Shown: one piece after another, positions 24,028-50,697 of the stretch
Layout: each line of letters starts with the position of its first letter
Numbering within the stretch: position 1 is the first letter of the stretch
Assembly: GCA_009838625.1 (NCBI GenBank)
Contig: VXRG01000109.1
Coordinates: forward strand, 1 to 64,000
Direction of reading: 5' to 3'
Length of the DNA: 64,000 nt
Source: Caldilineaceae bacterium SB0664_bin_27
Lineage (GTDB): Bacteria > Chloroflexota > Anaerolineae > Caldilineales > Caldilineaceae
Translations under genes and position numbers: made by a program
The notes under the pieces: model-generated
Told to the model about the DNA's origin: nothing
Databases searched by the model: none
The model's input: only the letters and a program-made list of their open reading frames with translations

Positions 24028-24081
24028 GTTGCCCATCCATCGCCGGTCTAAACAGGGTGGTACCGCGGGCGTCAAAACTGG

Positions 24082-24133
24082 CCTCGTCCCCGTTAGCAGC
24101 GGTTTTTTGCTGCAGTCGGAGACGAGGTTTTTT
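24082..24133 (+). terminator. T-box regulated terminator
   Basis: CCTCGTC (24082-24088) pairs with GACGAGG (24121-24127) and is followed by TTTTTT. An inner hairpin, GCAGC (24096-24100) with GCTGC (24109-24113), lies in the loop. The 5' arm CCTCGTCCC is also the part that would pair with AGGG..CCGCG of the T-box to form the antiterminator. Confidence 0.85.
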
Positions 24134-24181
24134 GTTCGGCATGAATCCGGGGCCGGGCTTCGAAGTAAGGAGAGAGCGAAC

Positions 24182-25723: not shown

Positions 25724-25777
25724 GAAAATGCTAAAGCCAGTTCCCAAGAGATCATTCCTAGAACACGGGAGGGAGAA

Positions 25778-26833: not shown

Positions 26834-26862
26834 ATCGGGAATCGGGAGAAAGGAGCGGAGCA

Positions 26863-27459: not shown

Positions 27460-27473
27460 CCGGTGCGAATGGA

Positions 27474-28523
27474 ATGAGTGCGTGGACGCAGGCCGTACAA
27501 GGTTATCTGACCAGCTCCCCCTCCAGCAACTTTCGCAATCTGGAGGTGGCCATCAAGAGTCATTGGCAGGGGCGCGACAATCTGCTCTGGCGTGTTCACT
27601 GCGGGAACGGCACCGATGCCGTATTCAAAATGTTCACAGACGCCGGCCAGGCTCGTTGCAGGCGCCAGTTCAGCGGCCAGGAGCAGTTTGCAGGCGCCGG
27701 TCTGGCGCCGGAGCCGCTTTGGTATGATCGATATCCCCACGGATTGCCGCGTCAAATTTTGGTTTACCGCTGGGCCGATGGTGAGTCACTAACAGTTGCA
27801 GACCCTCGTCATCGCATGGCTCACGCAGACGCGGTGGCCCGGGTCCACTGCGCCGACAGTTACAACGTGCAGCGGTTCAGCCCACACCCATTCAATCTGC
27901 TTACATTCTGGCAGATATGGCAGGCGGGTGAGGCCCCACTGCGCGAGTGGACATCTGCTGCTCCGGCGCCTGTGTTGTCAGAGCAACTCTCCACGCTTTG
28001 GGCGGCCGTGCACCGGCAAATGGATACGGCGCTGCCCCTGTTCGGAGAGACTGCCCCTTCACCGATCCATGGCGACTTGACGGCCGACAATGCTCTGATT
28101 CACAAAGGCCAGATCTTGCTGGTCGATTGGGAGTTCTTTGGTTTGGGCGACCCGGCCCAGGAGATAGCCCGCTTTCTGCTTTTTGGTGGTGAGGAATGGT
28201 CCGAAGAAGGCCGCGATGAGTGGCGGCGGCACTATTCCCATACAAACAGCGATCCCAGCTTACCTGATCGAGTCGACATTTACTTGCGGCTGCTCAGCTT
28301 TCAGGCCGTAACCTATTTGCTGGATGGCATTCGACAAAGGGCCGTACCGCCAGTTTCCGACACAAGTCCGGATGCGGAAAGTACTCAGTACCTATCCTTT
28401 CTCAACAGCGCAATTACGGTTGCATTGCACCGCTCAGCGACGTTGTGGGGTCTGTCTCCGCTGGGAAAGGGAGACAGCGATTTGCTGGCAGGCGAAATTG
28501 AGTTCCTTACCAGCAGTCGGTAG
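27474..28523 (+). CDS. Aminoglycoside phosphotransferase/choline kinase-like protein
   Basis: 349 residues from the ATG at 27474 (a TTG at 27456 overlaps trpG). Kinase-like fold: the catalytic loop IHGDLTADNAL near residue 200 and the metal-binding LVDWEFFGLGD after it are the Brenner motif and DFG equivalents of the APH family. No aromatic-pathway function is known for this family. Its position between trpG and trpD, on the T-box transcript, is unusual; a metabolite or small-molecule kinase function is possible. Substrate unknown. Confidence 0.8.
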   Translation: MSAWTQAVQGYLTSSPSSNFRNLEVAIKSHWQGRDNLLWRVHCGNGTDAVFKMFTDAGQARCRRQFSGQEQFAGAGLAPEPLWYDRYPHGLPRQILVYRWADGESLTVADPRHRMAHADAVARVHCADSYNVQRFSPHPFNLLTFWQIWQAGEAPLREWTSAAPAPVLSEQLSTLWAAVHRQMDTALPLFGETAPSPIHGDLTADNALIHKGQILLVDWEFFGLGDPAQEIARFLLFGGEEWSEEGRDEWRRHYSHTNSDPSLPDRVDIYLRLLSFQAVTYLLDGIRQRAVPPVSDTSPDAESTQYLSFLNSAITVALHRSATLWGLSPLGKGDSDLLAGEIEFLTSSR

Positions 28524-28617
28524 CTGGCACTGAAGCTACCGGCAACTACAGCCAGTTGGTCAGGATTGACTGGGTGAAGAAAAACTGTAGCCGTTGGAAT
28601 TGACAGGAGAGATACTC

Positions 28618-29664
28618 ATGGCGTCACCACTACTTGAAGCATTGGAATCCGTTTTCGCAGGGCAAGACCTCAACGCAGACACAGCCGACGCGGCCATGAC
28701 GCAGATCATGGGCGGCGAGGCGACTGATGCACAGATCGGCGCGTTTCTGGCGGCGCTCCGCATGAAAGGTGAAAGCGTAGCCGAGATTACAGGCTGCGCA
28801 CGGGCGATGAAGCGCGTCGCAGTGCAGGTGCGGCCGAATATAAGCGGCCAGCGCCTCCTGGACACTTGCGGAACGGGCGGCGATCAGACTGGCACCTTCA
28901 ACATCAGTACCACCGTCGCTTTCGTCGTTGCCGGGGCCGGCGAAAAGGTAGCCAAGCACGGCAACCGGTCCGCGAGCAGTCAATGCGGCAGCGCCGACGT
29001 GCTCGAGGAATTGGGCGTCCAACTGGACCTTGGCCCTGAACAGGTAGAAGAATGCATTGAGTCCGTTGGCATCGGCTTCTTGTTCGCACCCCTCTACCAC
29101 CCTGCAATGAAGTACGCCATCGGACCGCGCCGGGAGTTGGCGACCCGCACCGTCTTCAACTTCCTCGGTCCGCTGACAAACCCTGCCAACGCCACGCACC
29201 AGGTTATCGGCGTACCCAGCCCCAATCTCACTTCCCAGATGGCGAAAGTCCTTGGGCAGATGGGTAGTACGGCCGCATTTGTCGTCCATGGAACCACCGA
29301 CGATGGACGCGGCGTGGACGAGCTTACCACCACCGGCGCCAACCGAATCAGCCATTTGCGCCATGGTGAGGTACGGGAAAGTGAACTGTCGGCAACCGAT
29401 CTCGGAATGCCGCCCGCATCGCTCGACGACCTGGTTGGGGGAGACGCATCTACAAACGCTGCCATCACCCGGGGAATTCTCAGTGGCGAACTGCGCGGCC
29501 CCAAGCGGGATGTGGTACTATTGAATGCAGCGGCCGCTCTGGCAACCGAGAACAGTGACTGGGAGGCCGGACTGTCCGCAGCCGCCCAATCTATCGATAG
29601 CGGCGCGGCACAGGACTCGCTCAATTCGTTTATCGAGAAGACGCAGAGCTTCAGCGACAGCTAG
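28618..29664 (+). CDS. trpD: Anthranilate phosphoribosyltransferase
   Basis: 348 residues. Transfers phosphoribose from PRPP to anthranilate. Motifs: DTCGTGGDQTGTFNIST (PRPP/metal), KHGNRSASSQCGSADVLEELG (anthranilate side), and GPLTNPA. The ATG at 28618 follows AGGAGA; an in-frame TTG at 28594 is not needed. Eight bases separate its stop from trpC. Confidence 0.97.
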   Translation: MASPLLEALESVFAGQDLNADTADAAMTQIMGGEATDAQIGAFLAALRMKGESVAEITGCARAMKRVAVQVRPNISGQRLLDTCGTGGDQTGTFNISTTVAFVVAGAGEKVAKHGNRSASSQCGSADVLEELGVQLDLGPEQVEECIESVGIGFLFAPLYHPAMKYAIGPRRELATRTVFNFLGPLTNPANATHQVIGVPSPNLTSQMAKVLGQMGSTAAFVVHGTTDDGRGVDELTTTGANRISHLRHGEVRESELSATDLGMPPASLDDLVGGDASTNAAITRGILSGELRGPKRDVVLLNAAAALATENSDWEAGLSAAAQSIDSGAAQDSLNSFIEKTQSFSDS

Positions 29665-29671
29665 CAAGACA

Positions 29672-30520
29672 ATGGCCAGACATTCTCAGTTGGAAATAAG
29701 TAAGCATAAGGGGCAGGTCCTGGACAGGATCATGGCCTGGAAGCGCGAGGAGGTGGCACGTCAGATGGGGGATGTGCCGCTGGCTCAACTCAAGGCGCTT
29801 GCGCTGGTGGCCGAGCCTCCTCTGGATTTCGCGGCTGCACTCACCGCGGAGGCCGGCGCCAGCCTCATCGCCGAAGTCAAGCGTGCAAGTCCCTCCAAGG
29901 GGTTGATCGCCAAGGACTGGTCGCCGACAGCCATCGCCGAAACATACGCCGCCTGCGGCGCTGCCGCAATATCCTGCTTGACCGACGCTCGCTTTTTCCA
30001 GGGAAGACTTGCATACCTGGCTGAGATAGTCGAGCACCTGCGGGCAAAGAACCTGACTACACCGCTGCTGCGCAAGGAGTTCATCTATCATCCTTATCAG
30101 GTTTACGAGGCCCGAGCGGCCGGCGCGGACGCACTGTTATTGATCGTTGGCGTGTTGGGGGACTCAGATCTGCGCGAACTGCTCAGCCTGACGAAACAGT
30201 TGGGAATGGGTGCGCTGGTGGAAGTCCACGACGAGGAGGAAGTGGAGCGGGCGTTAGCGGCGGAGGCCCGGATCGTCGGTGTGAATAACCGGAACCTGAA
30301 AACGTTCGACGTGGATATCGAAACGACGGCCCGGTTGCGAGAACTGATTCCTGCCGACATTATCCTGGTCGGCGAGAGCGGCATCCGCAATGCGGTCGAT
30401 GTGAGGCGCATGGCTGATATGGGCTGCGATGCCATTCTCGTGGGAGAGAGCTTTTGCAAATTGCCCCAGGAAAAGCGGGGCGCGCTTGTGCACGAGTTCG
30501 TTCAAGCGGGAAAGCCGTGA
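29672..30520 (+). CDS. trpC: Indole-3-glycerol-phosphate synthase
   Basis: 282 residues. TIM-barrel enzyme closing the indole ring. Catalytic Lys and surroundings in AEVKRASPSKG, the second Lys in LLRKEFI, and the phosphate-site VGVNNRNLKTF and LVGESGI are all present. The frame is open 49 codons further upstream inside trpD; the ATG at 29672 fits the family N-terminus. A pseudogene separates it from trpF. Confidence 0.97.
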   Translation: MARHSQLEISKHKGQVLDRIMAWKREEVARQMGDVPLAQLKALALVAEPPLDFAAALTAEAGASLIAEVKRASPSKGLIAKDWSPTAIAETYAACGAAAISCLTDARFFQGRLAYLAEIVEHLRAKNLTTPLLRKEFIYHPYQVYEARAAGADALLLIVGVLGDSDLRELLSLTKQLGMGALVEVHDEEEVERALAAEARIVGVNNRNLKTFDVDIETTARLRELIPADIILVGESGIRNAVDVRRMADMGCDAILVGESFCKLPQEKRGALVHEFVQAGKP

Positions 30521-30568
30521 TTCAGTGCGTTTTGAGAACCATCGTCAAATGCTCGGAGCGCATCGTCA

Positions 30569-30869
30569 ATGACCGGTACAGTTCTCAATGTGATTGCCGT
30601 CTTTATCGGCGGCTCAATTGAAACGGTATTGGGAAACCGGTTGCCGGCAAGGATCCAAGTGACAGTGATGCATGGCCTGGGACTGATTCGCCGCCATTTC
30701 CTTTGCCGCCAGTCTGGGGCTAGGCGTTCTGCTCAGTGTCGGGAGGGCAGCAGCGGTGCAGGGAGGGCTGTCCGCATTGGCAATGGGAGCCGGAAGCGGT
30801 CTTGGAGGGGTCAGCCGGGAAACGGTTAAGGCCATTCGCCGGCACTTCTGCCCTTTAGGAAATTGCTAA
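30569..30869 (+). pseudogene. Decayed DUF554 membrane protein gene
   Basis: The first 38 codons (MTGTVLNVIAVFIGG, then GNRLPARIQVTVMHGLGL) match the N-terminus expected for DUF554 (YdfK-like) proteins. After about 30684 the family sequence resumes in another frame with what corresponds to a later region (FAAISFAASLGLGVLLSVG, then QGGLSALAMGAGSG), ending at TAA 30867-30869. A large internal deletion plus frameshift fits. The remnant ends 2 bp before the trpF ATG. Confidence 0.7.
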
Positions 30870-30871
30870 CG

Positions 30872-31588
30872 ATGACACGCGTCAAAATCTGTGGTATCAC
30901 CAGCTTCGAAGATGGACTTTGCGCGGCCAGGGCTGGAGCGGATTTCCTGGGGTTCATTTTTTTCAAGAAATCTCCCCGCTACGTTGCTCCTGAGGCTGCA
31001 GGTGAGATCACTTCCGCATTGGCTGAGCACATCTCTCAGCTGACGCCGCGCCCGGCTAGCGGCACGCCATTCGGGAAGACGCCCCGCTATATCGGTGTCT
31101 TTGTGAATGAACCGCTGGCTGGGGTCAAGGAGACGGCGAGAGTCGCCAACCTGGACTTTGCCCAGTTACACGGGGAAGAGCCGCCTGCGATGCTGGAGGC
31201 CCTGCAAGGGTTCGGGTTCAAAGCGTTGCGTCCAACCAGCGCCGCCGAAGCCGAAATTGAAGCCGAATGGTACGCGGAGTTGGGACCAGACAACGGTCCG
31301 CAACTTCTGATCGACGCCTACGATCCTGATGAGTACGGGGGAACAGGAAAGAAGGCTGACTGGAACGCGGCTGCCGGCATTGCGAGAACCTGCTCTCGTC
31401 TGGTCTTGGCGGGCGGCCTCACCCCGGAGAATGTCGGTGCGGCCGTGGAGGCCGTCCGGCCGTGGGCCGTTGATGTAAGTAGCGGCGTAGAAGTGGAACC
31501 AGGACGAAAGGACCCGGACAAGGTACGCGCATTTGTTTCGTGTGCCAAGGGCCATGGCTGGCAGGCGAAAGCTCTGGACTCAGAATGA
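30872..31588 (+). CDS. trpF: Phosphoribosylanthranilate isomerase
   Basis: 238 residues. TIM-barrel Amadori isomerase. The general base Cys is in VKICGIT near residue 7 and the acid Asp in LLIDAYDPDEYGGTG. The family's LAGGLTPENV and VDVSSGVE phosphate-site motifs are present. The ATG at 30872 gives the standard N-terminus; AGGAAA lies slightly further upstream than ideal. Confidence 0.96.
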   Translation: MTRVKICGITSFEDGLCAARAGADFLGFIFFKKSPRYVAPEAAGEITSALAEHISQLTPRPASGTPFGKTPRYIGVFVNEPLAGVKETARVANLDFAQLHGEEPPAMLEALQGFGFKALRPTSAAEAEIEAEWYAELGPDNGPQLLIDAYDPDEYGGTGKKADWNAAAGIARTCSRLVLAGGLTPENVGAAVEAVRPWAVDVSSGVEVEPGRKDPDKVRAFVSCAKGHGWQAKALDSE

Positions 31589-31599
31589 GGGATTGAAGC

Positions 31600-32850
31600 A
31601 TGGAAATTCTGGGGGGACCTCTCTTTGCCGTTGCCGGCGCGGGTGAATCGCACGGACCCGGTGTAACGACCATTGTATTCGGTTGCCCTGCCGGGCTTCG
31701 CATTCGTCGAGATGAGGTGCAGCGGTACTTGGACAGGCGCCGTCCAGGCAGTAACCGCCACGGCACACCCCGTCAGGAAGCCGACAGGGTTGTGCTTCTC
31801 TCCGGTCTGTACGCTGAAGGCGAGATTGACCAGTTGCTGTCCGGGCCCGCAGTATCGATAAGCGGCGAAGGCGATTCAGCCACCGAGAGCTACGAAGTTG
31901 GATTCGCCACGGGCGAGCCGATCGCCGCGCTGGTCCTCTCCACGTCACAACGCTCGCGCCACTACGAACAGTTTGCCGGACCCCGCGGCGAGGTACGTCC
32001 GGGCCACACAGACCTGGTAAAGTATCACAAGTCTCAGGGCTTCATCGATATTCGCGGCGGCGGGCGTTCCAGTTACCGCTCGACGATTTCGGATGTCATC
32101 GGTGGGGCCATCGCCCGAATATTTCTGAAAGAACGGTTCAGCACTGAGGTGCTGTCATCCATCTCACAGGTCGGACCGCTGCGCACGAATTTGAGCCTGG
32201 CTCAGCATTTCGAGAGCGTCAGGCAGAAAGAGGAGTCGCGGCCGGTCACACCGGAACAGGTTGCGGCGGTGGAGGGCAGGCTCGACGAGGCCGAGATTCG
32301 TTCGCTCGATGCCGAGTTTGCGCAGGAGGCTGGTGAACTGATCAAACGCACACGCATCGAAGGTGATTCGTTGGGTGCGGCGGTTGAGGTTGTAGCTGTG
32401 AACCCTCCGTCGTTGGTGGGCGAGCCCCTCTATCAGAGTCTCAAAGTGCGGCTGATGGGGGCGCTAGGAGGGTTGAACGCTGTGCAGTCGTGCGAGGTAG
32501 GCGACGGAGTGCAGGTCATCTCTCGCAAGGGCAGCGAGAATAACGATCCCATTCGTAGCAGAGGCTACCAGGCCAACAGCCATGGGGGGCTGATTGGCGG
32601 CGTTACGACCGGTTCACCGCTGGTATGCAGGGTCGGATTCAAGCCAACTTCGACCATTCTCAAAACCCAGCAATCGGTACGCAAGAATATGGAAGAGATC
32701 GACTTTGCGTTGGAAAAGGGGCGGCACGATCCCTGCGTAGGCGTACGCGCCGGAGTAACGCTGGAATCCCGCCTAGCGATTGAGCTGATGAACGCGGTGT
32801 TGATGCACCAGTCCGGACGAGTGGACACGAGAAACTTCAGGCTGTTCTGA
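31600..32850 (+). CDS. aroC: Chorismate synthase
   Basis: 416 residues, somewhat longer than common bacterial forms. Converts EPSP to chorismate using reduced FMN. Signatures: GESHGPGVTTIVFG near residue 17, SNRHGTPRQEAD, RPGHTDLVKYHKSQGFIDIRGGGRSS and the C-terminal RHDPCVGVRA with the conserved Asp-Pro-Cys. Eleven bases after trpF, so the operon moves here from Trp-specific to common-pathway genes. Confidence 0.96.
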   Translation: MEILGGPLFAVAGAGESHGPGVTTIVFGCPAGLRIRRDEVQRYLDRRRPGSNRHGTPRQEADRVVLLSGLYAEGEIDQLLSGPAVSISGEGDSATESYEVGFATGEPIAALVLSTSQRSRHYEQFAGPRGEVRPGHTDLVKYHKSQGFIDIRGGGRSSYRSTISDVIGGAIARIFLKERFSTEVLSSISQVGPLRTNLSLAQHFESVRQKEESRPVTPEQVAAVEGRLDEAEIRSLDAEFAQEAGELIKRTRIEGDSLGAAVEVVAVNPPSLVGEPLYQSLKVRLMGALGGLNAVQSCEVGDGVQVISRKGSENNDPIRSRGYQANSHGGLIGGVTTGSPLVCRVGFKPTSTILKTQQSVRKNMEEIDFALEKGRHDPCVGVRAGVTLESRLAIELMNAVLMHQSGRVDTRNFRLF

Positions 32851-32865
32851 ATTGGGGACAACAGA

Positions 32866-34512
32866 GTGGAAAACGACCACGCTTCAGCGGCCGTGCAGCC
32901 AATGGAAAGTCCTGTGGCCGACGGCTGCAACCTTACGATTACCGGCTTTATGGGTACGGGCAAGACAACCGTAGGCCGCATCATGGCCGATCGTCTGGGC
33001 CGCCGGCTCGTCGATATGGATGAGCTTATTGAGGCCGAATTTGGAAAGCCGATAGCCCAGATATTCGCGCAGGAAGGCGAAGAGCTGTTTCGCCAAGCGG
33101 AGGCGCGTCTCTGTCAAACACTCGCCGGTGAGACCGACCTAGTCATCGCAACCGGCGGGGGCACGCTAGTCAGCGAAGACAACCGGCAGACGTTGGAAGG
33201 AAGCGGCCCCGTGGTCTGCCTCACCGCGGGAGTTGACACTGTCCTGGAGCGCGTGGAGACGTTTGAAGACCGCCCACTTCTGCCCGGGGACCGGGAAGAA
33301 AAGAGACGCAACATTGAGAGTCTACTCCTGAACCGCCGCGACGCATATGGGCGGATTCCCCTGCGAGTGCCTACCGACGGCGTCGAACCGGAGACCGTTG
33401 CAGAGCGCGTTCTAGACACTCTGGCGGGCAACAATGAGATCGCTGAGATGACCCGTATCACGGTGCCCACGCCGGAAGGGCACTACCACATCTGTATTGG
33501 CGAAGGCATCCTGGTGAATGCGGGCCGTCTCCTTTCCAACCGAGGGGTGGCTAAAGGAAAGGCTGCGATCGTTTCGAATGCAGAAATCGCTGAACATTAC
33601 GCCGATACTGTGTCTGAGAGCCTCAAGAAGGAGGGCTACACACCGGTTCTCTGCCTCGTACCCGAAGGGGAAGAGCACAAGACGCTAGCGACAGTTCACA
33701 GCCTGTACGACCAGTTTGTGGCAGCGGAACTCGACAGGAGAAGCCCTATTGTCGGTCTGGGGGGCGGCGTTATCGGCGATATGGCGGGATTCGCGGCAGC
33801 CACCTACTTGCGAGGCGCTCCTTTCGTACAGATCCCGACATCTCTGCTGGCAATGGTCGATGCCTCGGTCGGCGGCAAGACAGCCGTAGATTTACCGCAG
33901 GGCAAGAATCTTGTTGGCGCGTTCAAGCAGCCCGTCGTCGTGATCATCGATCCGGAAGTTCTCGCTGAACTTCCGGCGGCCGAATTTCGGTCGGGGCTGG
34001 CTGAGATCGTTAAGCACGGAATTCTGGGAGACCCTGATCTCTTTCGCCAACTGGAAGGTCAGGGCCCGGCGAATCTGACACAAATGATCGCCGACGCTGT
34101 GCGGGTGAAGGTAGAAGTGGTGATAGAGGACCCGTTTGAGAAAGGGCGGAGGGCGACTCTCAACCTGGGACACACATTTGGGCATGCCATCGAACAGGTA
34201 AGCGGCTATTCACTGCGGCACGGGGAGGCGGTCGCCATAGGGACTGTAGCCGCTGCCCGTATGGCAGTGGCGTTGGATCGCTGCGACGCCCAGACCGCAA
34301 GCCGCATCGAGAGCTGCCTGGCGCGGCTGGAGCTGCCCACTGAGGCCAGCGGACTCGAACTGAACGATGTATACGCCATGATGTTCAAAGACAAGAAAAG
34401 AAGTGGCAGGATGCTGAGATTCATCATTCCCCAGGCAATTGGCGACGTGGTCATCATCGACGATCCAGGAGAGCAGGTTGTGCAAGAAGCTCTTGCCTCG
34501 GTTTTGACGTAA
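32866..34512 (+). CDS. aroKB: Bifunctional shikimate kinase/3-dehydroquinate synthase
   Basis: 548 residues from GTG. Residues about 20-185 are shikimate kinase (P-loop GFMGTGKTTVGR; DMDELIE; ATGGGTLV; DRPLLPGDREEKRR). Residues about 190-548 are dehydroquinate synthase (GEEHKTLATVHSLYD, GLGGGVIGDMAGFAAATYLRG, TSLLAMVDASVGGKTAVD, and zinc ligands Glu in LAEIVKHGI and His in NLGHTFGHAIE and LRHGEAVAIG). The fusion joins steps 2 and 5 of the pathway. No stop or frameshift separates the halves. Confidence 0.96.
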   Translation: MENDHASAAVQPMESPVADGCNLTITGFMGTGKTTVGRIMADRLGRRLVDMDELIEAEFGKPIAQIFAQEGEELFRQAEARLCQTLAGETDLVIATGGGTLVSEDNRQTLEGSGPVVCLTAGVDTVLERVETFEDRPLLPGDREEKRRNIESLLLNRRDAYGRIPLRVPTDGVEPETVAERVLDTLAGNNEIAEMTRITVPTPEGHYHICIGEGILVNAGRLLSNRGVAKGKAAIVSNAEIAEHYADTVSESLKKEGYTPVLCLVPEGEEHKTLATVHSLYDQFVAAELDRRSPIVGLGGGVIGDMAGFAAATYLRGAPFVQIPTSLLAMVDASVGGKTAVDLPQGKNLVGAFKQPVVVIIDPEVLAELPAAEFRSGLAEIVKHGILGDPDLFRQLEGQGPANLTQMIADAVRVKVEVVIEDPFEKGRRATLNLGHTFGHAIEQVSGYSLRHGEAVAIGTVAAARMAVALDRCDAQTASRIESCLARLELPTEASGLELNDVYAMMFKDKKRSGRMLRFIIPQAIGDVVIIDDPGEQVVQEALASVLT

Positions 34513-40855: not shown

Positions 40856-41656
40856 CTACCCTCCGCGGCTGCCGGCCGCCAGCTGTGCAGCCAGACTACG
40901 CACGGCGTCGACTCCCGCCTCCGAGCCGGCGGCTTTCACCAGCGCCGAACCAACAATCACGCCTTCGACAATCTCGGACACCCTGGCAGCCTGGGGGCCG
41001 GTACTGATACCAAAGCCGACCGCCAAGGGTAGATCGGTGTGGCGGCGTACGCGTTCTACAAAAGCGGGTAGACCGGGTGGCAGCTCATCGCGGGCTCCGG
41101 TGATTCCGGTTACGCTCACGAGGTAGATAAAGCCGGTGGCGTGCCGTGCTACCGACTTGATGCGGTCTTCTGTGCTTGTCGGCGCCAGCATGTAGATTGT
41201 GGCCAGACCGGCGGCGCGGCAGGCGGGCTCCAGGAGTTCTGACTCTCCCGGCGGCAGATCGGGGACTATCAGTCCGTCGATGCCCGCCTCGGCGGCAGCA
41301 TTCGCGAAGCGTTCTTCGCCGAACGCAAGGATTGGATTGTAGTAGCTCATGGCGCAGAAAGGCGTGTCAACGCCCTGGTCACGCAGCTCGCGCACCATGC
41401 GGAGGCAGTCGGCCACGGTTGTCCCGCCAACGAGCGCGGCGTAGGTGGCAGTCTGAATTGTCGGCCCATCGGCAAGCGGGTCACTGTGGGGTATGCCGAT
41501 TTCGACGAGGTCCGCGCCGGCCTCGGCCAGGGCGGCAATTACATCAAGGGACTGCTGCCGGTCAGGATAGCCCATGGCATGGTAGGGCATGAAGGCGGCG
41601 GCGCCAGCCTTATTCAGATTGCGGAAAACCTGCTCGATGCGTTCTACTCCCCTCAT
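40856..41656 (-). CDS. trpA: Tryptophan synthase alpha chain
   Basis: 266 residues. Cleaves indole-glycerol phosphate to indole. Catalytic Glu and Asp lie in [19 protein letters not shown] near residues 50-65. The loop and phosphate-site motifs [12 protein letters not shown] and AVGFGIST are intact. GAGAGGTGAAAG precedes the ATG. Last gene of the - block, 29 bp after trpB. Confidence 0.97.
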
Positions 41657-41685
41657 CTTTCACCTCTCGGCCTAAGCTTACGCAT

Positions 41686-42936
41686 TTAACTGTCTCCTCC
41701 GATTGTCTGCATCACCGTGCCCAGATCCTTGTCGCCGCGTCCGCTGAGATTCACCAGTATCACCTGATCTTTCGCCATCTGCGGCGCAAGTTCCAACACA
41801 TAGCCGATCGCATGGGCACTTTCCAGTGCAGGGATGATACCTTCCAGTTCGCACAGCGCCTTGAACCCTTTGAGAGTCTGCGCGTCTGTGCAGTAGGTGT
41901 ATTCGGAGCGTCCTACATCTCGAAGCCAAGCGTGTTCCGGGCCCACGCTGGCGTAATCCAGGCCGGCGGAAATCGAGTGGGTCAGTGCGATCTGCCCGTC
42001 ACCGTCCTGAAGGACGTAGCTCTTGGTGCCCTGCAGTACGCCGAGCCTGCCCCGCTCGGGATCAGCGAAACGAGCGGCATGGGCGCCGTCTTCAATCCCG
42101 TGTCCGCCCGCCTCGACACCAATGAGACGCACACTCTCCTCCTCAAGGAAAGGATGGAATATACCAATGGCGTTGCTGCCCCCTCCAACGCAGGCCACGA
42201 TAGCGTCGGGCAGCCGGCCCGGGCCGCCTTCAGCGGGATCCTGCATCTGGCTGTGGGCCTCCAGACCAATGATCGATTGGAAGTCCCGCACCATGGCAGG
42301 ATAGGGATGGGGACCAAGCGCGCTGCCCAGCAGGTAGTGTGTGGATTCCACGTTTGTTACCCAATCGCGGATGGCCTCGTTGATGGCGTCTTTGAGCGTC
42401 TGCGAACCGCTGTCGACGGCCCGCACCTCAGTGCCGAGAAGCTGCATGCGAAAGACGTTGGGCTTCTGGCGCTCCATGTCTACAGTGCCCATGTAGACGA
42501 TACAGCCAATCCCCAGGAGCGCAGCTGCGGTGGCGGTGGCGACACCGTGCTGGCCGGCGCCAGTTTCTGCCACGATACGCGTTTTGCCCATCTTGCGTTT
42601 CATCAGCAGGGCCTGGCCCAGAGCATTGTTGATTTTGTGGGCGCCGGAGTGAGCAAGGTCTTCCCGTTTCAGATAGATCCGGGCGCCGCCCAGTTCTTCG
42701 CTCAGTCGGCGGGCATAGGAGAGCGGAGTCGGACGGCCAACGTAGGTATGCTGCAAGTGGGCCAGTTCCGCCATGAACTCTTTATCAACGCGGGCGTTCA
42801 GGTATGCTTCTTCCAGTTCATCCAGCGCCGGCATAAGTGTTTCGGGCACATATTTGCCTCCGTACGGTCCGAAACGCCCCGTCTCGTCCGGAACAGCGTT
42901 GTAGTTGACAGTTGTAGATGTGGTAGAAAGAGTCAT
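41686..42936 (-). CDS. trpB: Tryptophan synthase beta chain
   Basis: 416 residues. PLP enzyme joining indole and serine. The PLP Lys is in [15 protein letters not shown], the catalytic Glu in [12 protein letters not shown], and the phosphate-binding GGGSNAIG is present. The frame is open to 43089, but the ATG at 42936 with GAGGA in front gives the normal N-terminus ([22 protein letters not shown]), characteristic of the TrpB1 form. Confidence 0.97.
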
Positions 42937-42979
42937 CAGTTCCTCGCATTCGGTCTGGTGACGGGCGCCCATCTGTCCG

Positions 42980-43915
42980 TCATCTGCGCTCGAAAATGAT
43001 ATTGGTTGCCTGCTGCATTTCAGCCACAGGCGCAGATTCACCGGTCCACTTTTCCCAGGCAATTGCACCTTGGTAGACGAGCATTCCAAGGCCGCCTATG
43101 GCAGCAGCTCCATCGGTCGAGGCCAGTTGCAGCAACCGTGTCATGGCCGGGTTGTAGACCAGATCGTAGACGATCTGATCCTTGCGGAATTCGACATTTT
43201 CCTCCCAGGGCAAGCCTTCGATGCGCGGCTCCATGCCCAGCGAGGTGCAGTTGACGATCAGGTCCGCGTTCTGGGCGCTACCTGTCACATCATCAGGGAA
43301 GGCGGCACCGCTGATATTGATCTCCGGAAAGTAGGACTGCATCGTTGCGGCCAGATCGACAGCCTTCGGGACGGTGCGGTTGAGGATCTTCACACTCTTC
43401 ACGCCGGCCTCGGCCAGACCGTACACGACTGCCCTTGAGGAACCGCCCGCGCCTATAACCAGCGCCCGCATGCCGGCAGGCTCAACGTCGTGGGCCTGCA
43501 GGTCGGCGATAAAACCGGCGCCGTCAGTATTGTCTCCGGATAGCTGGCCATCTTGCTGGACGACAATTGTATTCACCGCTCCGATTGCTTCGGCCGCGGG
43601 TGTCCAATGATGCAGATGGGGCATGACGGACTGCTTGTGGGGAACAGTCACGTTTACACCCCTCAATCCGAGAGCAGGCAACGCGGCGACAGCCTCCGGC
43701 ACTCTTTCCGGCGGCACCGCGAAGGCCAGATAGCGCCAGTTCATCTGGCGTACGACAAAGGCGGCGTTGTGCATCTGAGGACTGATGGAGTGGGTAACCG
43801 GCCAACCGAAAAGGCCGACGAGTGTCGTTGCGGCATTTATATCGGTTGGGAACGGTTCTGAACTGGCCTCGTTTGAACGATTAGGGACCGATTCTTTCCG
43901 AAGAGGTTCACTCAT
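42980..43915 (-). CDS. aroE: Shikimate dehydrogenase
   Basis: 311 residues from the ATG at 43915, which overlaps the aroA stop by 8 bp; the frame is open to 44035 inside aroA. Shikimate-binding SISPQMHN, the catalytic Lys in [10 protein letters not shown], Asp in GDNTDGAGF, and NADP-binding [13 protein letters not shown] with NRT are present. The N-terminal approximately 30 residues before [11 protein letters not shown] are a variable extension. Confidence 0.96.
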
Positions 43916-45239
43916 TTTCACTTTCCCGGTCCATTGCCTGCACATTGACGTTGAGCGCGCGTAAGGTTGATTCGAAGCCGGGAAAACTGTCTGCGGTAAC
44001 ATGCGCGTTATGGATGGTGGTCTCTCCATCGGCAACTACTGCGGCCACGGCCAAAGCCATCGCCAGCCGGTGGTCACCATGGCTGTCCACGCTCGCGCCC
44101 TCCAGTTTAGTGGGCCCGTCCACGATGAAGCCGTCAGCGGTTTCCTGAATCCTGGCGCCCATCTTTTTGAGTTCGGAGACGGTCGTGGCGATGCGGTCGG
44201 TCTCCTTAACGCGTAGTTCCTGGGCATCGCGTACGACAGTCCGGCCCTCGGCCTGCGTGGCTGCGACTGCCAGAACCGGCAGTTCGTCGATCATCGTGAC
44301 GAGTTGTGCTCCGCCGAATTCCATACCTCGCAGCCCGCCGCCGCTTACAATCAGATCTGCTACGGGCTCTCCACCCTGGAATGGCCGCTCTCTGCGCCGA
44401 ATGCTGGCCCCCATCTCGGAAAGGGCATCGACGATTCCGGTCCGGGTCGCATTGACACCGACATCGACGATCGTCAGGTTACTGCCCTGTAACGAGGATG
44501 CCCCGACAAGCAGGAATGCGGCCGAGGAGATATCTCCGGGAACCAGAATGTTCAGAGGGTTAAGCGGGGTCTGGGGGCGCTCGCTATGCGTTGTATTGCC
44601 CAAGGCGGTGACCGGGGCGCCCATCGAACTCAGCATACGCTCGGTATGATCTCGCGCAGGTCCAGGTTGGTGAACCACAGTCAATCCGTGGGCATAGAGA
44701 CCTGCCAGCAGGAGACAGCTCTTGACCTGGGCGCTGGCGACCGGCATCTGGTATTCGATCGCGGAAAGGCGGGAGGGAATGATAGTGAGGGGCGCGAACC
44801 GGCCATTTTGGCGTCCGAAAATCTGCGCGCCCATCGTCCGCAGCGGATCGGCAATCCGGGCCATAGGACGGCCTCGAATCTGGGCCGTGCCGCTAAGTAC
44901 GCTTACGAACTCCTGTCCAGCGAGCAGCCCCGCCAGTAGACGCATTGTCGTGCCGCTGTTGTCGCAGTCGAGCACGTCATTTGGCTCTTTCAAGCCATCA
45001 AGACCGACGCCGTAAACCTCGAGGCGCGTGCGGCTGATTTCATCGATGCGCACGCCCATGGCACGCATAATGTTCATGGTGGCCCTACAGTCGTGGCCAT
45101 CGAGAAAGTTGCGAATATGTGTGGACCCTTCGGCAATTGAACCGAAGATCACCGCCCGATGGCTGATGGACTTATCGCCCGGCACGCTGCACCGGCCGAC
45201 AAGAGGACCGTCACTGCTGATCTTGAGGATGTCTGCCAT
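43908..45239 (-). CDS. aroA: 3-phosphoshikimate 1-carboxyvinyltransferase (EPSP synthase)
   Basis: 443 residues. Shows PGDKSISHRA near residue 21, CDNSGTTMRLLAG (the region equivalent to GNAGTAMR), the RPMARIADPLR element, SAQVKSCLLLAG, DELPVLAVAATQAEG and the C-terminal GDHRLAMALAVAA. The Gly-Thr-Thr in DNSGTT in place of the usual Gly-Thr-Ala places it nearer the class II-like group; inhibitor sensitivity cannot be read reliably. Confidence 0.96.
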   Translation of the reverse strand: MADILKISSDGPLVGRCSVPGDKSISHRAVIFGSIAEGSTHIRNFLDGHDCRATMNIMRAMGVRIDEISRTRLEVYGVGLDGLKEPNDVLDCDNSGTTMRLLAGLLAGQEFVSVLSGTAQIRGRPMARIADPLRTMGAQIFGRQNGRFAPLTIIPSRLSAIEYQMPVASAQVKSCLLLAGLYAHGLTVVHQPGPARDHTERMLSSMGAPVTALGNTTHSERPQTPLNPLNILVPGDISSAAFLLVGASSLQGSNLTIVDVGVNATRTGIVDALSEMGASIRRRERPFQGGEPVADLIVSGGGLRGMEFGGAQLVTMIDELPVLAVAATQAEGRTVVRDAQELRVKETDRIATTVSELKKMGARIQETADGFIVDGPTKLEGASVDSHGDHRLAMALAVAAVVADGETTIHNAHVTADSFPGFESTLRALNVNVQAMDRESENE

Positions 45240-45331
45240 GGAAAATCTCAGCTGTATTGGTTCGTTCGGTCAAAAACGTTTTCAATGTCGACATCGGTGT
45301 TGCGGCTTGTTGAGAATCTCACACTGGCAGA

Positions 45332-46261
45332 TCATTGTGCATTGACTGGCGGCGGCCCGTTTCTGCCACCTGCCGGCGTTGCGAATGAACCCTTCTTCTG
45401 CTGCCATTCCGCGCGCGTATTCTGTGAGCAGGAGAGCTTACTCCGCAGAGAATCTTCATCGTTGTCAGCGAGAAGAGTTCGCAGTTCCTGAAGATGCCCA
45501 CCCAGGGTGTCCAACTGCTCCAGGACCGCCTCGCGATTGGTCACCAGAATGTCCAGGAACATCTGCGTATCGCTAGCCGCCACCCGGCTGGTGTCGCGAA
45601 AACCTCCGGCAGCCAGTTCCCAAACTGCGGCATCTTCTTCTCCGCTGTCGCTGACCGTGTGAACCAGGGCGCTCGCCAGGAGAAATGGCAGATGACTGAT
45701 GGCAGCAACAAGGCGGTCATGGCGAACCGGCTCCAAGGTGATTGGGAAGGCCCCGATTGCCTCCGCCAGTTCGGAGGCCAGTTCGATTGTTTCCTTCGAG
45801 GTGCGAGGAAGGGGCGTGAGGACCCACGGCGCCCCTTCATAAAGCCCACCTTCTGCGGAGGCGTAACCGGCAGTTTCCTTTCCTGTCATGGGATGGCCGC
45901 CTATTGGCTGAATTCCAGGCGGCAGCCGGTCCATGGCCGCGCAGATTTCGGCCTTGGTACTTCCCATATCCATGACAACGGTACCTGGCCAAAGGATTGG
46001 ACTGAGCGTCTCCAGCATCTTTACGACTGCCCGTACTGGCGTGGACAAGATGACTACATCGGCCCCGGCGACGCCGGAGTTAAGATCGGTAGTCGCCAAA
46101 TCGACCGCGTCTTCGTGAAAGGCGCGCAGGATAGTGCTGAAGTTGCGGGTCACGCCTCTCACTTCACGGCACAGATTGCGTTTTTTCAGATCGATGCACA
46201 GGCTTGCGCCCATCAGGCCCAGCCCGATGACCGCAACGCTGCACTCAGAAAGAGGTTTCAT
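45332..46261 (-). CDS. tyrA: Prephenate dehydrogenase
   Basis: 309 residues. Rossmann motif GLGLMGASL near residue 13, then DMGSTKAEI, the substrate loop [12 protein letters not shown] and the His in [13 protein letters not shown]. No C-terminal ACT domain is evident; the last 30 residues are polar. Makes 4-hydroxyphenylpyruvate for Tyr synthesis. 88 bp from the upstream DAHP synthase gene. Confidence 0.95.
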
Positions 46262-46349
46262 GAGTGGTCTGTCGTTGCCGCGGTATTGCCCCTACTTTGC
46301 CGGTGAAGACGGCCTCGTTGATTTGAGGGCTTCAGACGGAAACCGGAAA

Positions 46350-47366
46350 TCAGAGTTTGCGTCCGACAGCGTTGGCAATGGATTCCAGTTCCTTCATCAA
46401 GACGCCGAAATGCTCGAAGGTCAGACTCTGGGCGCCGTCGCTCCAGGCCTTTGAAGGGTCAGGGTGTACTTCGATCATCAGAGCATCCGCCCCCGCGGCG
46501 ACTGCGGCCTTTGCAATCGGTGGCACGTATTCCCATTGGCCTGTTCCGTGTGCCGGGTCGGCCACGACAGGCAAGTGAGTCAACTGCTTGAGGACGGGGA
46601 TGGCATTAATATCGAAGGTGTTGCGGGTAGTTGTCTCGTAAGTTCGAATCCCGCGTTCACAGACCATCACCTGCATGTTGCCGTTGCTTAAAATGTACTC
46701 GGCTCCCATCAGCAGCTCCTGAATAGTGCCGCTGATGCCGCGCTTGAGGAAGACCGGTTTGGTCGTTTTGCCCACTGCCTTGAGAAGCGGATAGTTCTGG
46801 TTGTTGCGAGCGCCGATCTGAAAGATGTCGGTGTATTCGCCGACCAATTCTATATCTTCCGAGCTCATGACTTCGGTAATAATCGGGAGACCGGTCTGCT
46901 CCCTGGCCTCTGCCAGGAACTTGAGACCCTCTTCTCCCAAGCCCTGGAAACTGTACGGGCTGCTGCGCGGTTTGAAGGCGCCGCCCCGCAGCACGGACCC
47001 ACCGGCTTCTTTGACCGCGTGAGCCGTCTCCAGGATTTGCTCGCGGCTTTCCACACTGCAAGGTCCCGCCATGACCACTACTTTCTCACCGCCGACGTTT
47101 GTGCCGTTCACGGGAATCGTGGTTGACGACTGAACGAAGTCACGGCTGGCGTACTTGTAGGGCTGCATAATACGGACTGTCTTTTCCACACCGTCAAGGA
47201 CCTCGAACGTGTCCTGCTGGATCAGATAGTCGTCAGCGCCGATGATACCCACGATTGTACGGGCTTCGCCGCGGCTCAGGTGCACCTTGTACCCGAGTTC
47301 CTCGACGCGCTTGACGACTTCCTCCACCTGGTCTTGGGCAGCGCCCTGTTTCATTACAACAATCAT
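46350..47366 (-). CDS. aroF: 3-deoxy-7-phosphoheptulonate (DAHP) synthase, type I-beta
   Basis: 338 residues. First committed step: erythrose-4-phosphate plus PEP. Residues 1-70 form a ferredoxin-like regulatory domain ([20 protein letters not shown]), as in feedback-controlled type I-beta enzymes. The catalytic barrel has [56 protein letters not shown] and [12 protein letters not shown]. It is the second of two tandem paralogues in the block. Confidence 0.95.
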
Positions 47367-47469
47367 TGAAGATTCCTTTCCTGGTCTGGTTGCGTAGCTA
47401 GGCTATCGGTGCGCGTTGCGTTCTTTGTCAGGCTGAGTGAGATCCTCTTTCCACACTGTACCGGGCCGT

Positions 47470-48573
47470 TCATGCCAACACGGCACTCTTGCTCGTTTCC
47501 TCAGTACTCCGGTTTTTGTTACCTGCCATCCCGGCGGAGTCATCTGATTCTTTAGGGGTTGCAATCGAGCGGCCGACAGCCGCAGCAACTCTTCGCAAGC
47601 TTCTCATCAGGTCTGCGAACCTTTCAGGTTTGAGACTCTGGTCTCCATCACTCAAGGCTGATTCCGGGTCCGGGTGAACTTCCAGGATCAGGGCATCGGC
47701 TCCAGCCGCGACCGCAGCCAGTGACATCGGCGGCACCAGTTCCCAGTCGCCCGTACCATGTGCGGGATCGGCGACGACCGGCAGATGGGAGGAACGCTTG
47801 AGAACGGGTACAGCGTTGAGATCAAAAGTGTTACGGGTGGCCGTTTCATAGGTACGAATGCCGCGCTCGCACAGCATAACCTGCATGTTGCCGTTGCTGA
47901 GGATATACTCGGCACACATCAGAAGCTCGTTGATTTCACCGCTGAGGCCGCGCTTGAGCATCACCGGTCGCCGGGTCTTGCCGACTGCCTGGAGAAGCGC
48001 GTAATTCTGCATATTGCGGGCGCCAATCTGAAGGATATCCACGTACTCGGCCACCAGGTCGATTGTTTCGACAGTCATGACTTCGGAGATGACGGGCAGG
48101 CCTGTGACCTCGCGGGCTTCGGCCAGGTATTTCAGCCCCTCTTCGCCAAGGCCCTGGAAGCTGTACGGACTGGTACGCGGCTTGAAGGCACCGCCGCGCA
48201 GTACGCTGGCCCCTGCCTCTTTGACTGCTACGGCGGTCTGAATAATCTGCTCTCTGCTCTCAACGCTGCAGGGCCCGGCCATAACGACAACCTGCTCGCC
48301 CCCGAAACGGATGCCGTTCACGTCTATTACGGTTCCTTCGGGGTTTGTGGTTCTACTGGCGAGCTTGTAAGGATCCTGGATTCGAACTGTCTTCTGCACG
48401 CCTGCCATCGCATCGAAGGTAGCCCTCTGCACCTGGGTCAGGTCGCCGACAAGGGCGATAACGGTATGGCTTTCGCCAGTGATCGGTTGCGTTTGGGCGC
48501 CCATTGAGGCTGCCCGCTTGATGACGTGATCTATCTCGGCCTGGGAAGCCTCGGGCTTCATTACGACAACCAT
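47470..48573 (-). CDS. aroF: DAHP synthase, type I-beta (second copy)
   Basis: 367 residues with the same domain order as the neighbour at 46350: N-terminal ferredoxin-like domain ([14 protein letters not shown]), then a barrel with [56 protein letters not shown] and [12 protein letters not shown]. It has a polar C-terminal extension of about 30 residues that the other copy lacks. AGGAGAG precedes the ATG. The N-terminal domains differ more than the barrels, suggesting different feedback ligands; inferred. Confidence 0.95.
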
Positions 48574-48678
48574 TCAACTCTCCTATTGCACAGTTCCTCA
48601 TTGGTAGGATATGACATTCAGGTTTGAAGGTGTGCTGAGATGCTTCCTTCGTTGATTCGAGTTGGCGCTCTCGACTTT

Positions 48679-49536
48679 CTATATCTGCAACACCGCCTCT
48701 TGCGCGTACTCCTCAGGAGTGGGTTGCACGGCCGCGGGGTAGCTGCCCAGCATCTTGACAAACGCTGCTCTATTGAGCAGCCCTAAAACGGCAGCACTAC
48801 AGTCCGGCTCTTGCCAGTGACCTTCAAAATCCAGATAAAACACGTATTGCCAGGGCCGGTTGCGGCGCGGGCGGCTCTCCAGTTTTACGAGATTGATGCT
48901 GCGCTCGGCGAACTCTCCCAGACAGGCATATAAGGCCCCCGGGCTGTGGGGCGTGGCAAAGACGAGGGAGGTCTTGGCGTTCGCCGACTGCTGGGCATCG
49001 CCCTTTCCAATTACGAAGAAGCGGGTAAAGTTGAAGAGGAGATCCTCGATACCCTCCTGGACAATCTCCAGATCATAGATCTCGGCAGCCAGTGCGCTTG
49101 CGATCACGCCTACCTGCGGCTCCGGATGCTCGGCAAGCTCTTTGGCGCTGCCGGCAGTATCGTACCAGGGTATGGCAGTGTAGCCGTGGCGATTGAGAAA
49201 ACCCTCACACTGGGCGAGGGCCTGTGGATGGCTGCGCACCTGATCAATCTTGTCGCCATTGCCTGGCATCGTCAGCAGATTGTGCCGTACACGCAAAAGG
49301 ATTTCCCCCTGAACGCGAAAGTCATGATCCAGCAAGAGGTCATAGGCTTTATTAATACTGCCTGCGAGGGAGTTTTCGACTGGGACTACGCCCAAAGTAG
49401 AGCGGTCATCGCCCAGCGATGCGAAGATGTCTTCAAAGGTCCTGCTGGGCAGTGTATCGACCTCGGCGCCAAACTGTTGGCGGATGGCCTCTTCGGAGTA
49501 TGCGCCATGCTCTCCCTGAAAAGCGACAACTGACAT
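48679..49536 (-). CDS. pheA: Prephenate dehydratase
   Basis: 285 residues. Catalytic domain about 1-180 ([55 protein letters not shown] with the TRF motif). C-terminal ACT domain about 190-270 ([27 protein letters not shown] with the ESRP element), indicating Phe feedback. No chorismate mutase domain is fused; that activity is encoded by the neighbouring aroH. GGAGTAA precedes the ATG. Confidence 0.96.
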
Positions 49537-49612
49537 TGGGTTACTCCATGGTTACTTGGCGGCGATGAGGTGCATCAGTGAGCTAAGATTCTCCATTCCG
49601 GCGCAGGCGCGG

Positions 49613-50032
49613 TCAATTCTGCAACTGTTCATCGATCCAGCGGTTCAACTCGTCAAGATCGATTTCGGACGCCAGCCTCTTGTCGGGGCGCAGAGCCTGG
49701 GCCTCTTTCAGATAAACATGCTGGATTTCCTTCTGCGGCGTGTCGGTATTCCAGTTGATCAGAATGCGAATACATAGTGGAGTACTGTCAGGAACCCGCA
49801 TCTCATGTCCGCAGAGCAGGGGTACGTCCATCCAACCCAGCTGACGGGCGGCCAGAGCCGGGTATTGACTGACCACATCGAAAGTTGTGGTAAAGATTGC
49901 GCTGGCCACGTCTTCGGATTGGATATTGTTAAGACGAATCATAAAGGCCAACAGTTCTCTGGTTGCCTGCAAGATTGATTCGGGTGTGTCCTCTTCAATG
50001 GTTGTTGCGCCCCGCACTCCTCGACAGATCAC
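49613..50032 (-). CDS. aroH: Chorismate mutase, AroH class
   Basis: 139 residues from GTG at 50032, preceded by GGAGAG; the longer frame to 50248 runs into the attenuator terminator and is rejected. The sequence VICRGVRGATTIEEDTPESILQATRELL is the AroH start with the catalytic Arg. The trimeric AroH fold is further supported by SAIFTTTFDVVSQYPALAARQLGW, the Cys in PLLCGHEM and the Arg in IRILI. First structural gene of the - block, about 135 nt after the terminator. Confidence 0.94.
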   Translation of the reverse strand: MICRGVRGATTIEEDTPESILQATRELLAFMIRLNNIQSEDVASAIFTTTFDVVSQYPALAARQLGWMDVPLLCGHEMRVPDSTPLCIRILINWNTDTPQKEIQHVYLKEAQALRPDKRLASEIDLDELNRWIDEQLQN

Positions 50033-50167
50033 GGCTCTCTCCAGTTTTTTTCGCGGCGTCCTGCATAGATTGGAATTTACAACACCAGGCGAATCAGGTT
50101 TTTGTCGGCCGACTTTGCAGGCGGCAAGAATAGGCACGCAATCCGGATAAAACTGCCTCAAGGCCAA

Positions 50168-50199
50168 CAAAAAAAGCGTGGAGTTCGTCTCCACGCTTT
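50168..50199 (-). terminator. Terminator arm of the aromatic attenuator
   Basis: On the - strand AAAGCGTGGAG pairs perfectly with CTCCACGCTTT around ACGAA and is followed by a run of T. A textbook rho-independent terminator located in front of aroH rather than after a gene, so it must be conditional if the block is expressed from the promoter at 50540. Confidence 0.88.
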
Positions 50200-50222
50200 G
50201 AGTGTGTTTACGTTGACTGTCT

Positions 50223-50339
50223 CTACACAGCCCAACGCTCCTCAACAAGTGGAGACGGTTGGTTCACGCCAAAATAATAACCAAACCAAAAATTGCCAAA
50301 AGAAAACCCGCGCCACTCATGGCGCAGGTTGCTGGACAA
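50223..50339 (-). CDS. Putative aromatic leader peptide
   Basis: 38 codons from a TTG at 50339 that has GGAG at a 6-nt spacing (GGAGATCCTG then TTG). The centre reads GFSFGNFWFGYYFG: residues 12-23 contain five Phe, one Trp and two Tyr; Trp also occurs at 9 and 36. The run is encoded at 50271-50306. An alternative is an 18-codon ATG frame starting at 50316-50318 and ending just before region 2; its stop position suits attenuation better but it is rich in Leu/Ile rather than Tyr/Trp and lacks a ribosome site. The existence of translation is unproven. Confidence 0.5.
   Translation of the reverse strand: MSSNLRHEWRGFSFGNFWFGYYFGVNQPSPLVEERWAV
50300..50327 (-). terminator. Hairpin with T-rich tail at the head of the leader peptide
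   Basis: CTGCGCCA pairs with TGGCGCGG around TGAG (8 bp, one G-T), followed by TTTTCTTTT. It has the form of an intrinsic terminator, but the T-rich tail is also the start of the Phe-rich codon run. It may be a pause hairpin that lets the ribosome catch up with the polymerase. Confidence 0.5.
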
Positions 50340-50511
50340 CAGGATCTCCGCGGCTGACGGACCATCCAACAGGTTGATCGGAAGGAGCGAATCGTCCTCG
50401 TTTCGAATCAGATCGGCGATTGTTACTTGCGCTTCGCTTCGTTCTTTAGCCACTCTGTCGAGCCGTCCTCGTTGCTGTGCAATTGAGAGTCTCTTCAAGA
50501 CATTGAGGCAG

Positions 50512-50540
50512 AGATTACCACACGCTGAAATCAATGTCAA
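50512..50540 (-). promoter_or_regulatory. Promoter of the - strand aromatic operon
   Basis: On the - strand TTGACA (50540-50535) and TAATCT (50517-50512) are 17 bp apart, with a TG pair just before the -10 (extended -10). Transcription would start near 50505, giving a leader of about 470 nt before aroH. Confidence 0.8.
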
Positions 50541-50587
50541 ATCTCTCGCGAGAAAGTGGTGCAGTCCAGAATTGGGGGGAATTTCGC

Positions 50588-50697
50588 CATGGACGAGGAG
50601 TGAGGAGAGAGGGGAGCAAGGAGGCGCGTGAGAGGGGAGCACTGAAGGACTTTGGCACAATTTGGCACAATTTGGCACGTTTTTGGGCGGTTTTCCC
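50588..50697 (-). repeat. Shared upstream element: three 10-bp repeats plus polypyrimidine tract (second copy)
   Basis: Read on the - strand: three 10-bp units with TGTGCCAAAT-like sequence (50651-50680), then TCCTTCAGTGCTCCCC, then a C/T-rich run to about 50588. This aligns unit by unit with 23499-23605 and has the same orientation relative to its promoter, about 110 bp upstream. A second GA-rich stretch at 50758-50790 may be a fragment of another copy. Confidence 0.6.

Follow-up and report, generated by a model that had tools for sequence, protein, structure and literature searches.

Attenuators at the E. coli pheA and trp operons (leaders pheL and trpL) combine control codons in a leader open reading frame (ORF) with mutually exclusive 2:3 and 3:4 hairpins and an intrinsic terminator. 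The trp leader ORF ends before region 2, and ilv leaders, such as that of E. coli ilvGMEDA, carry multivalent control codons for several end products of one operon. For aromatic amino acids, what appears to be the closest described system that we found, much smaller than the one presented here, is the aroR-aroF attenuator of Corynebacterium glutamicum (Neshat et al. 2014, cited in PMC11802643; the aroR leader is also noted in PMC4046766), where a Phe-Tyr-Phe leader is accompanied by a response to Phe and reportedly by none to Tyr. We analyzed a 64,000-nucleotide stretch (the window: positions 1 to 64,000 of contig VXRG01000109.1) of Caldilineaceae bacterium SB0664_bin_27, a metagenome-assembled genome (MAG) of an uncultured member of the Chloroflexota, in which a leader with the elements of the E. 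coli systems lies on the minus strand upstream of a chorismate mutase gene, the first of nine aromatic genes. On the evidence set out below we consider it highly probable that this leader is a ribosome-mediated transcription attenuator that would sense the charging of aromatic tRNAs, with Phe and Tyr surely intended and Trp possibly, and would control the aromatic operon.

Leader peptides were previously known only in Proteobacteria and Actinobacteria, to which Naville and Gautheret added Firmicutes (PMC2965389), and no RNA elements turned up at Phe or Tyr genes in a survey of actinobacteria (PMC1262725). A preliminary description of the locus knew of no equivalent in this lineage. We likewise found no report of a leader-peptide attenuator in Chloroflexota in the literature searched, and because most subscription literature lay beyond the reach of that search, the novelty of what seems to be a conserved, apparently undescribed way of sensing aromatic shortage is provisional.

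Anatomy of the leader

The terminator, AAAGCGTGGAG-ACGAA-CTCCACGCTTT followed by TTTT (50199-50173), is an 11-bp stem between the leader ORF and the first gene. Within its 5' arm, GTGGAGACG (50194-50186) is the perfect 9-bp complement of CGTCTCCAC (50257-50249), the core of region 2, which begins 13 nt past the last control codon. The aromatic run of the leader frame reads FSFGNFWFGYYF. The stem with its T run, the alternative pairing and the eight aromatic codons in twelve (50271-50306) had all been reported in the preliminary description and are present as given there; its aromatic frame also stands, and only the shorter length that it implied probably does not, since the likely start at GTG 50453 gives 76 codons. 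A second hairpin followed by a U-tract, just upstream of the run (50330-50305, hairpin A), was absent from that description. All features are collected in Table 1.

These elements stand out from their background. The 2:3 duplex of the window leader is predicted at -22.2 kcal/mol, compared with -10.4 in shuffles (z -6.4), and folding of the 181-nt leader gives z = -3.5. Dinucleotide shuffling of the 333-nt leader never gave eight aromatic codons in twelve (0 of 1000), that of the 181-nt core did so once (1 of 1000), and more than six in 13 codons occur in only 1 of 126 one-kb pieces of the window, namely the piece with the leader.

The aromatic frame is translated

The genome set held 16 same-genus and 29 same-family relatives of the window assembly. 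Across 17 same-genus leaders, the variable columns at codon positions 1, 2 and 3 number 9, 7 and 38, and pairwise codon differences in the leader frame are mostly synonymous (1727 synonymous to 468 nonsynonymous, compared with about 240 to 2000 in the other two frames). Within the genus the 13-codon run shows 184 synonymous and 0 nonsynonymous pairwise differences, and 6 of its 13 third positions vary. Both other frames change mostly nonsynonymously and hold stops in most relatives, which settles the choice among three candidate frames: an ATG frame at 50320 (MSGAGFLLAIFGLVIILA, then stop) and a GTG frame at about 50316 (ARVFFWQFLVWLLFW..., aromatic too) were ruled out as leaders by this codon-position test. 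A 151-residue ORF from 50678 was also rejected as a protein, having no Pfam match, an unconserved frame upstream of the promoter and stops in several relatives.

The leader frame holds no ATG in the window and probably starts with the GTG at 50453, which is kept as GTG throughout the genus. Other families include leaders of no more than about 25-30 codons that have an ATG directly past the promoter (L078, L085), which confirms the ORF as a leader and not the tail of another gene. All 23 leaders checked across the class have the promoter itself, TTGACN and TANNNT set 17 or 18 nt apart, ahead of the leader frame; as for transcripts that might start below 50168, this conserved promoter is upstream of the leader and not inside it. 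Codon choice also sets the run apart, as the control codons prefer TTT and TAT, both in the Caldilineaceae run and class-wide (161:32 and 87:61), opposite to the operon genes, which prefer TTC and TAC (52:26 and 45:18).

The same T-richness could be read in another way. Positions 50299-50271 resemble a promoter (TTGGCA-17-TATTTT) between two terminators, T-rich DNA encodes Phe and Tyr, and the aromatic codons might then be incidental. However, variation in the run is confined to third positions, the frame is open in all relatives, every leader checked has a better promoter upstream, and no shuffle of the 333-nt leader reaches the aromatic count, so that chance T-rich DNA is scarcely credible; a promoter inside the run is refuted as the main explanation by the codon-position variation and the conserved upstream promoter.

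The N-terminal half of the leader (50309-50453, VTIADLIRNEDDSLLPINLLDGPSAAEILLSSNLR) is conserved at the protein level in part of the Caldilineaceae, more than attenuation seems to require. The leader peptide might also act in trans as a small protein, for which Sinorhizobium peTrpL offers a precedent (PMC7298713), and the N-terminal conservation might be due to that; in this part there are, within the genus, 21 variable third positions, compared with 7 and 4 at positions 1 and 2. Yet the leader has no Pfam domain, and the leaders of other families are short and without the N-terminal part (L078, L085), which leaves a function in trans unlikely.

Distribution

A degenerate pattern of the run, searched against 84,980 species genomes, matched 30 loci, all assigned to Chloroflexota and one per record, in MAGs labeled Caldilineaceae, Litorilinea, Chloroflexi/Chloroflexota or, for one of them, unclassified bacterium. 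When the regions upstream of chorismate mutase were compared in Caldilineaceae and in other families of the class, nearly all held 6-10 aromatic codons of 13, mostly 170-330 nt before the gene. The order promoter, aromatic run, terminator-complementary arm, stop and terminator before chorismate mutase or pheA recurs in about 45 genera of the class, and the leader sits before pheA where chorismate mutase was not found in family members (L101, L102, L104-L108). Most genera of the class have a mixed aromatic run ahead of one of these two genes. Conservation had been set as a test beforehand, and both the stems and the aromatic codons are kept in related genomes. A clear aromatic run was not found in a few members of the class (L076, L081, L087, L094, L095), which were excluded from the structural tests.

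In other classes, most of 20 chorismate-mutase loci are without an aromatic leader. Three genomes outside the class (G132, G110 and G243) do possess a comparable aromatic leader, with GCGCGGAGC, GCGTGAGGCAGC and GCGTGAGGCAGC, respectively, in its terminator, and in a fourth (G115) the aromatic run is present and the terminator not clear. The family spans one class, and at least three lineages beyond that class provide clear examples.

The alternative pairing is conserved and co-evolves

Each run is followed by a terminator and by an in-ORF arm complementary to the 5' strand of that terminator. The sequences vary by family while the pairing is kept, as in the arm pairs CGTCTCCAC/GTGGAGACG, TCGCCAT/ATGGCGA and GGTTGCTTCACGC/GCGTGGAGCAACC of different families. 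In a permutation test on 45 leaders, one per genus and with kinship beyond that uncorrected, the cognate 2:3 pairing averaged -20.7 kcal/mol, compared with -16.0 (standard deviation 0.43) when arms were swapped between genera (0 of 10,000 permutations, z -11). The 2:3 pairing co-evolves. Its placement is regular as well: in the 45 leaders the median distance from the last aromatic codon to the start of region 2 is 11 nt, which roughly equals the reach of a ribosome, and that from region 2 to the stop codon is 16 nt. If a ribosome stalls at the final aromatic codon, the folding model predicts for 39 of 45 that 2:3 pairs ahead of the synthesis of region 4. Four loci of one genus (L062, L063, L064, L067) have a different terminator, GGAGCGGTCC...GGATCGCT, and a run without a Trp codon despite trpBA in the operon (L150).

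Two terminator-like hairpins in a long structured leader might also suggest a metabolite-binding RNA, a T-box or attenuation by an RNA-binding protein, with the small ORF incidental. Rfam, Trp_leader and Phe_leader included, gave no gathering-threshold match to a described leader RNA in the window and, beyond one chance match, nothing meaningful at E<=1 in 50000-50600. The specifier loop of a T-box and its conserved GGGTGGTACCGCG antiterminator are absent from the aromatic leader, yet a T-box is found at trpE in the same window, and region 2 lies inside the ORF at ribosome distance. We therefore regard control by RNA or protein binding as very improbable.

Hairpin A

In 38 Caldilineaceae leaders 99.2% of the cells of hairpin A are paired, and 5 of 10 pairs have changed on both sides (0 of 500 shuffles). 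A hairpin with a T-tract just before the run is present in 29 of the 45 genus representatives, compared with a mean of 4.2 and a maximum of 8 when upstream bases were shuffled. The U-tract codons, TTT TCT TTT, hardly vary in Caldilineaceae (35 of 35, 33 of 33 of Ser and 33 of 34), although the operon genes use TCT least of all Ser codons and prefer TTC for Phe. Because the tract is nearly invariant despite codons disfavored in the operon, it is selected both as RNA and for its codons. Hairpin A is probably a pause site that synchronizes RNA polymerase with the ribosome or a terminator for untranslated transcripts.

Which amino acids may be sensed

Codons for Phe and Tyr are both present in 45 of 45 genus representatives, with Trp too in 29 (193 Phe, 148 Tyr and 32 Trp codons in total), and Phe and Tyr replace one another at several positions of the run. 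Such variation bears on a different reading of the peptide, a TnaC-like nascent-chain arrest, in which the ribosome would be stalled by exit-tunnel contacts together with a metabolite or an aromatic amino acid in free form, rather than by uncharged tRNA. Within Caldilineaceae the whole peptide is conserved, non-aromatic residues too (GFSFGNFWFGYYF), and evolution is synonymous in the N-terminal half as well, which speaks for this reading. Class-wide, however, only the aromatic character is kept, while order, spacing and identity vary (VFYFGFYFYFWGF, FAGVYFYYYYFPF, PAAFSGYYYYYYY); free variation of this kind suits codon sensing, not a defined arrest motif, and with Phe and Tyr interchanging in the run we judge arrest to be quite improbable.

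Support is better for the sensing of Phe and Tyr than for that of Trp, which is the weakest part of the proposal. The first 16 codons are without Trp in 16 of 45 genus representatives, which speaks against it, and Trp codons fail as a marker of trpBA, with no Trp codon at L062 where trpBA is present (L150) and a Trp codon at L066 where it is not (L116), a further point on the negative side. Moreover, at trpE, where a leader with Trp codons was not found, there is instead a T-box (RF00230; 23721-24094, within 23673-24140, plus strand; E = 9.9e-19, under the Rfam gathering score), with UGG at the specifier position as read by eye and a TTGACA-17-TATAGT promoter ahead. Since Trp has this dedicated sensor, the most fitting description of the leader is a Phe/Tyr sensor that may also respond to Trp; of the Phe/Tyr/Trp sensor put forward in the preliminary description, the first two members are supported by their codons in all 45 representatives and the third is weakened by the absence of its codon from 16, by its independence of trpBA and by the trpE T-box. 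It is possible, though doubtful, that the leader belongs to a phylum-level family of cumulative aromatic gauges, in which any one shortage, of Phe, Tyr or Trp, would open the operon and hairpin A, with a U-tract that also supplies the first Phe-Ser-Phe control codons, would check translation before the second terminator responds to amino-acid supply.

The same-strand stretch after the T-box (23981-34512, plus strand) holds trpE, a Trp/Tyr-type tRNA synthetase, a phosphotransferase (APH), an anthranilate phosphoribosyltransferase-type gene, chorismate synthase and a fused shikimate kinase-3-dehydroquinate synthase.

The operon behind the leader

The nine downstream genes counted in the preliminary description, which names among them both DAHP (3-deoxy-D-arabino-heptulosonate 7-phosphate) synthases, the Phe/Tyr branch enzymes and TrpAB, were identified by Pfam, and their spacing and common strand suggest that they are co-transcribed. 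Their products, Phe, Tyr and Trp, agree with the amino acids of the control codons. Across the class the core behind the leader consists of chorismate mutase, pheA, DAHP synthase, tyrA, aroA and aroE, and trpBA follows this core only in Caldilineaceae loci. Some same-genus operons have a tandem pair of pheA genes after chorismate mutase (L036, 4009/5025; L054, 2352/3368; L047, 5339/6355), and a second pheA-like gene of the window's genome lies on another contig (G000:C90:22688-23542).

Table 1. Leader elements and operon genes, in window coordinates
Feature	Position	Strand	Details
Promoter	50512-50540	-	-35 TTGACA 50540-50535, 17-nt spacer, -10 TAATCT 50517-50512
Leader ORF	50223-50453	-	GTG 50453 (probable) to TAG 50225-50223, 76 codons, C-terminal end ...LRHEWRGFSFGNFWFGYYFGVNQPSPLVEERWAV
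Hairpin A	50305-50330	-	AACCTGCGCCATGAGTGGCGCGGGTT, 11 bp, GC-rich; U-rich tract TTCTTTT next, encoding F-S-F
Control codons	50271-50306	-	F S F G N F W F G Y Y F, 8/12 aromatic
Region 2 (antiterminator arm), inside ORF	50240-50257	-	core CGTCTCCAC 50257-50249, extension to ~50240
Region 3 (terminator 5' arm and loop)	50184-50199	-	common to both structures
Region 4 (intrinsic terminator 3' arm)	50173-50183	-	T-run next, to 50169
Aromatic operon, nine genes	40856-50032	-	Pfam
Chorismate mutase (type I)	49613-50032	-	Pfam; GTG start
pheA, prephenate dehydratase	48679-49536	-	Pfam
DAHP synthase, first copy	47470-48573	-	Pfam
DAHP synthase, second copy	46350-47366	-	Pfam
tyrA, prephenate dehydrogenase	45332-46261	-	Pfam
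aroA, 5-enolpyruvylshikimate-3-phosphate (EPSP) synthase	43908-45239	-	Pfam
aroE, shikimate dehydrogenase	42980-44035	-	Pfam
trpB, tryptophan synthase beta	41686-42942	-	Pfam; range as searched, ORF reaches 43089
trpA, tryptophan synthase alpha	40856-41656	-	Pfam

Proposed mechanism

From the position of the promoter, transcription would be expected to begin near 50505, and the leader ORF would be translated behind RNA polymerase. When aromatic tRNAs are charged, the ribosome would cross the control codons and region 2, leaving 3:4 to pair and transcription to end at 50169. If one of these tRNAs lacks its amino acid, the ribosome would stall within 50306-50271 with its front edge leaving region 2 (from 50257) free; region 2 would then pair with region 3 on its emergence, the terminator would come too late, and the nine genes would be transcribed. 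Hairpin A with its U-tract would probably act ahead of this choice, by pausing the polymerase until the ribosome is in step or by ending transcripts that are not translated.

Several points weigh against this proposal. The start codon and ribosome binding site of the leader are not strong. Once region 4 is present, 3:4 is predicted to be more stable than 2:3 at equilibrium in most relatives, and therefore the switch must be kinetic, as is assumed for classical attenuators; in the window leader the folding model places the two structures near balance (0.55 vs 0.26). A conserved region 1 pairing with region 2 was not found in the leaders, and when the ribosome is left out of the folding model, 2:3 is still formed ahead of region 4 (median 0.64). 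With no conserved region 1, untranslated leaders are predicted by the model to be read through unless hairpin A ends transcription, and hairpin A may stand in for the missing region.

Comparison with known systems

The leader is most probably a variant of ribosome-mediated attenuation and not a new type of mechanism; it is best described, from its sequence, as a classical-type attenuator with the unusual features of multivalent aromatic control codons, an antiterminator arm inside the ORF and a tandem terminator-like hairpin. The E. coli pheA and trp attenuators each sense a single amino acid, whereas the window leader mixes codons for Phe, Tyr and Trp. The preliminary description, the main point of which is supported, had noted single-amino-acid sensing for known trp and pheA attenuators; leaders for several amino acids do exist, as in the Phe-Tyr-Phe leader of C. 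glutamicum aroR and the multivalent ilv leaders. With E. coli ilvGMEDA the window leader shares multivalent control codons and differs in that the ilv codons are branched-chain and not aromatic, and in lineage and RNA. Its antiterminator arm lies inside the ORF, unlike that of E. coli trp. The synchronizing pause hairpin of E. coli trp is 1:2, with the pause site after region II, past the control codons (PMC1183508), whereas here the U-tract hairpin precedes them. T-box leaders (RF00230) also sense tRNA charging and switch a terminator, but they bind the tRNA directly and need no translation; with the candidate Trp T-box operon in the same genome, two different tRNA-charging sensors would divide one pathway.

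Nearly the whole chorismate-to-Phe/Tyr pathway would be placed under one multi-amino-acid sensor, and the 45 genera, which differ naturally in their combination of aromatic codons and in whether they carry hairpin A, lend themselves to studying how a multivalent attenuator weighs its signals. C. glutamicum aroR shares with this leader Phe and Tyr codons before a DAHP synthase gene and ribosome-mediated attenuation. It differs in having three aromatic codons, compared with eight here, in that no Trp codon is reported, in controlling aroF and not nine genes, and in belonging to a different phylum. Since aroR answers Phe and reportedly not Tyr, it also cautions against assuming that a mixed leader responds to each amino acid that its codons specify.
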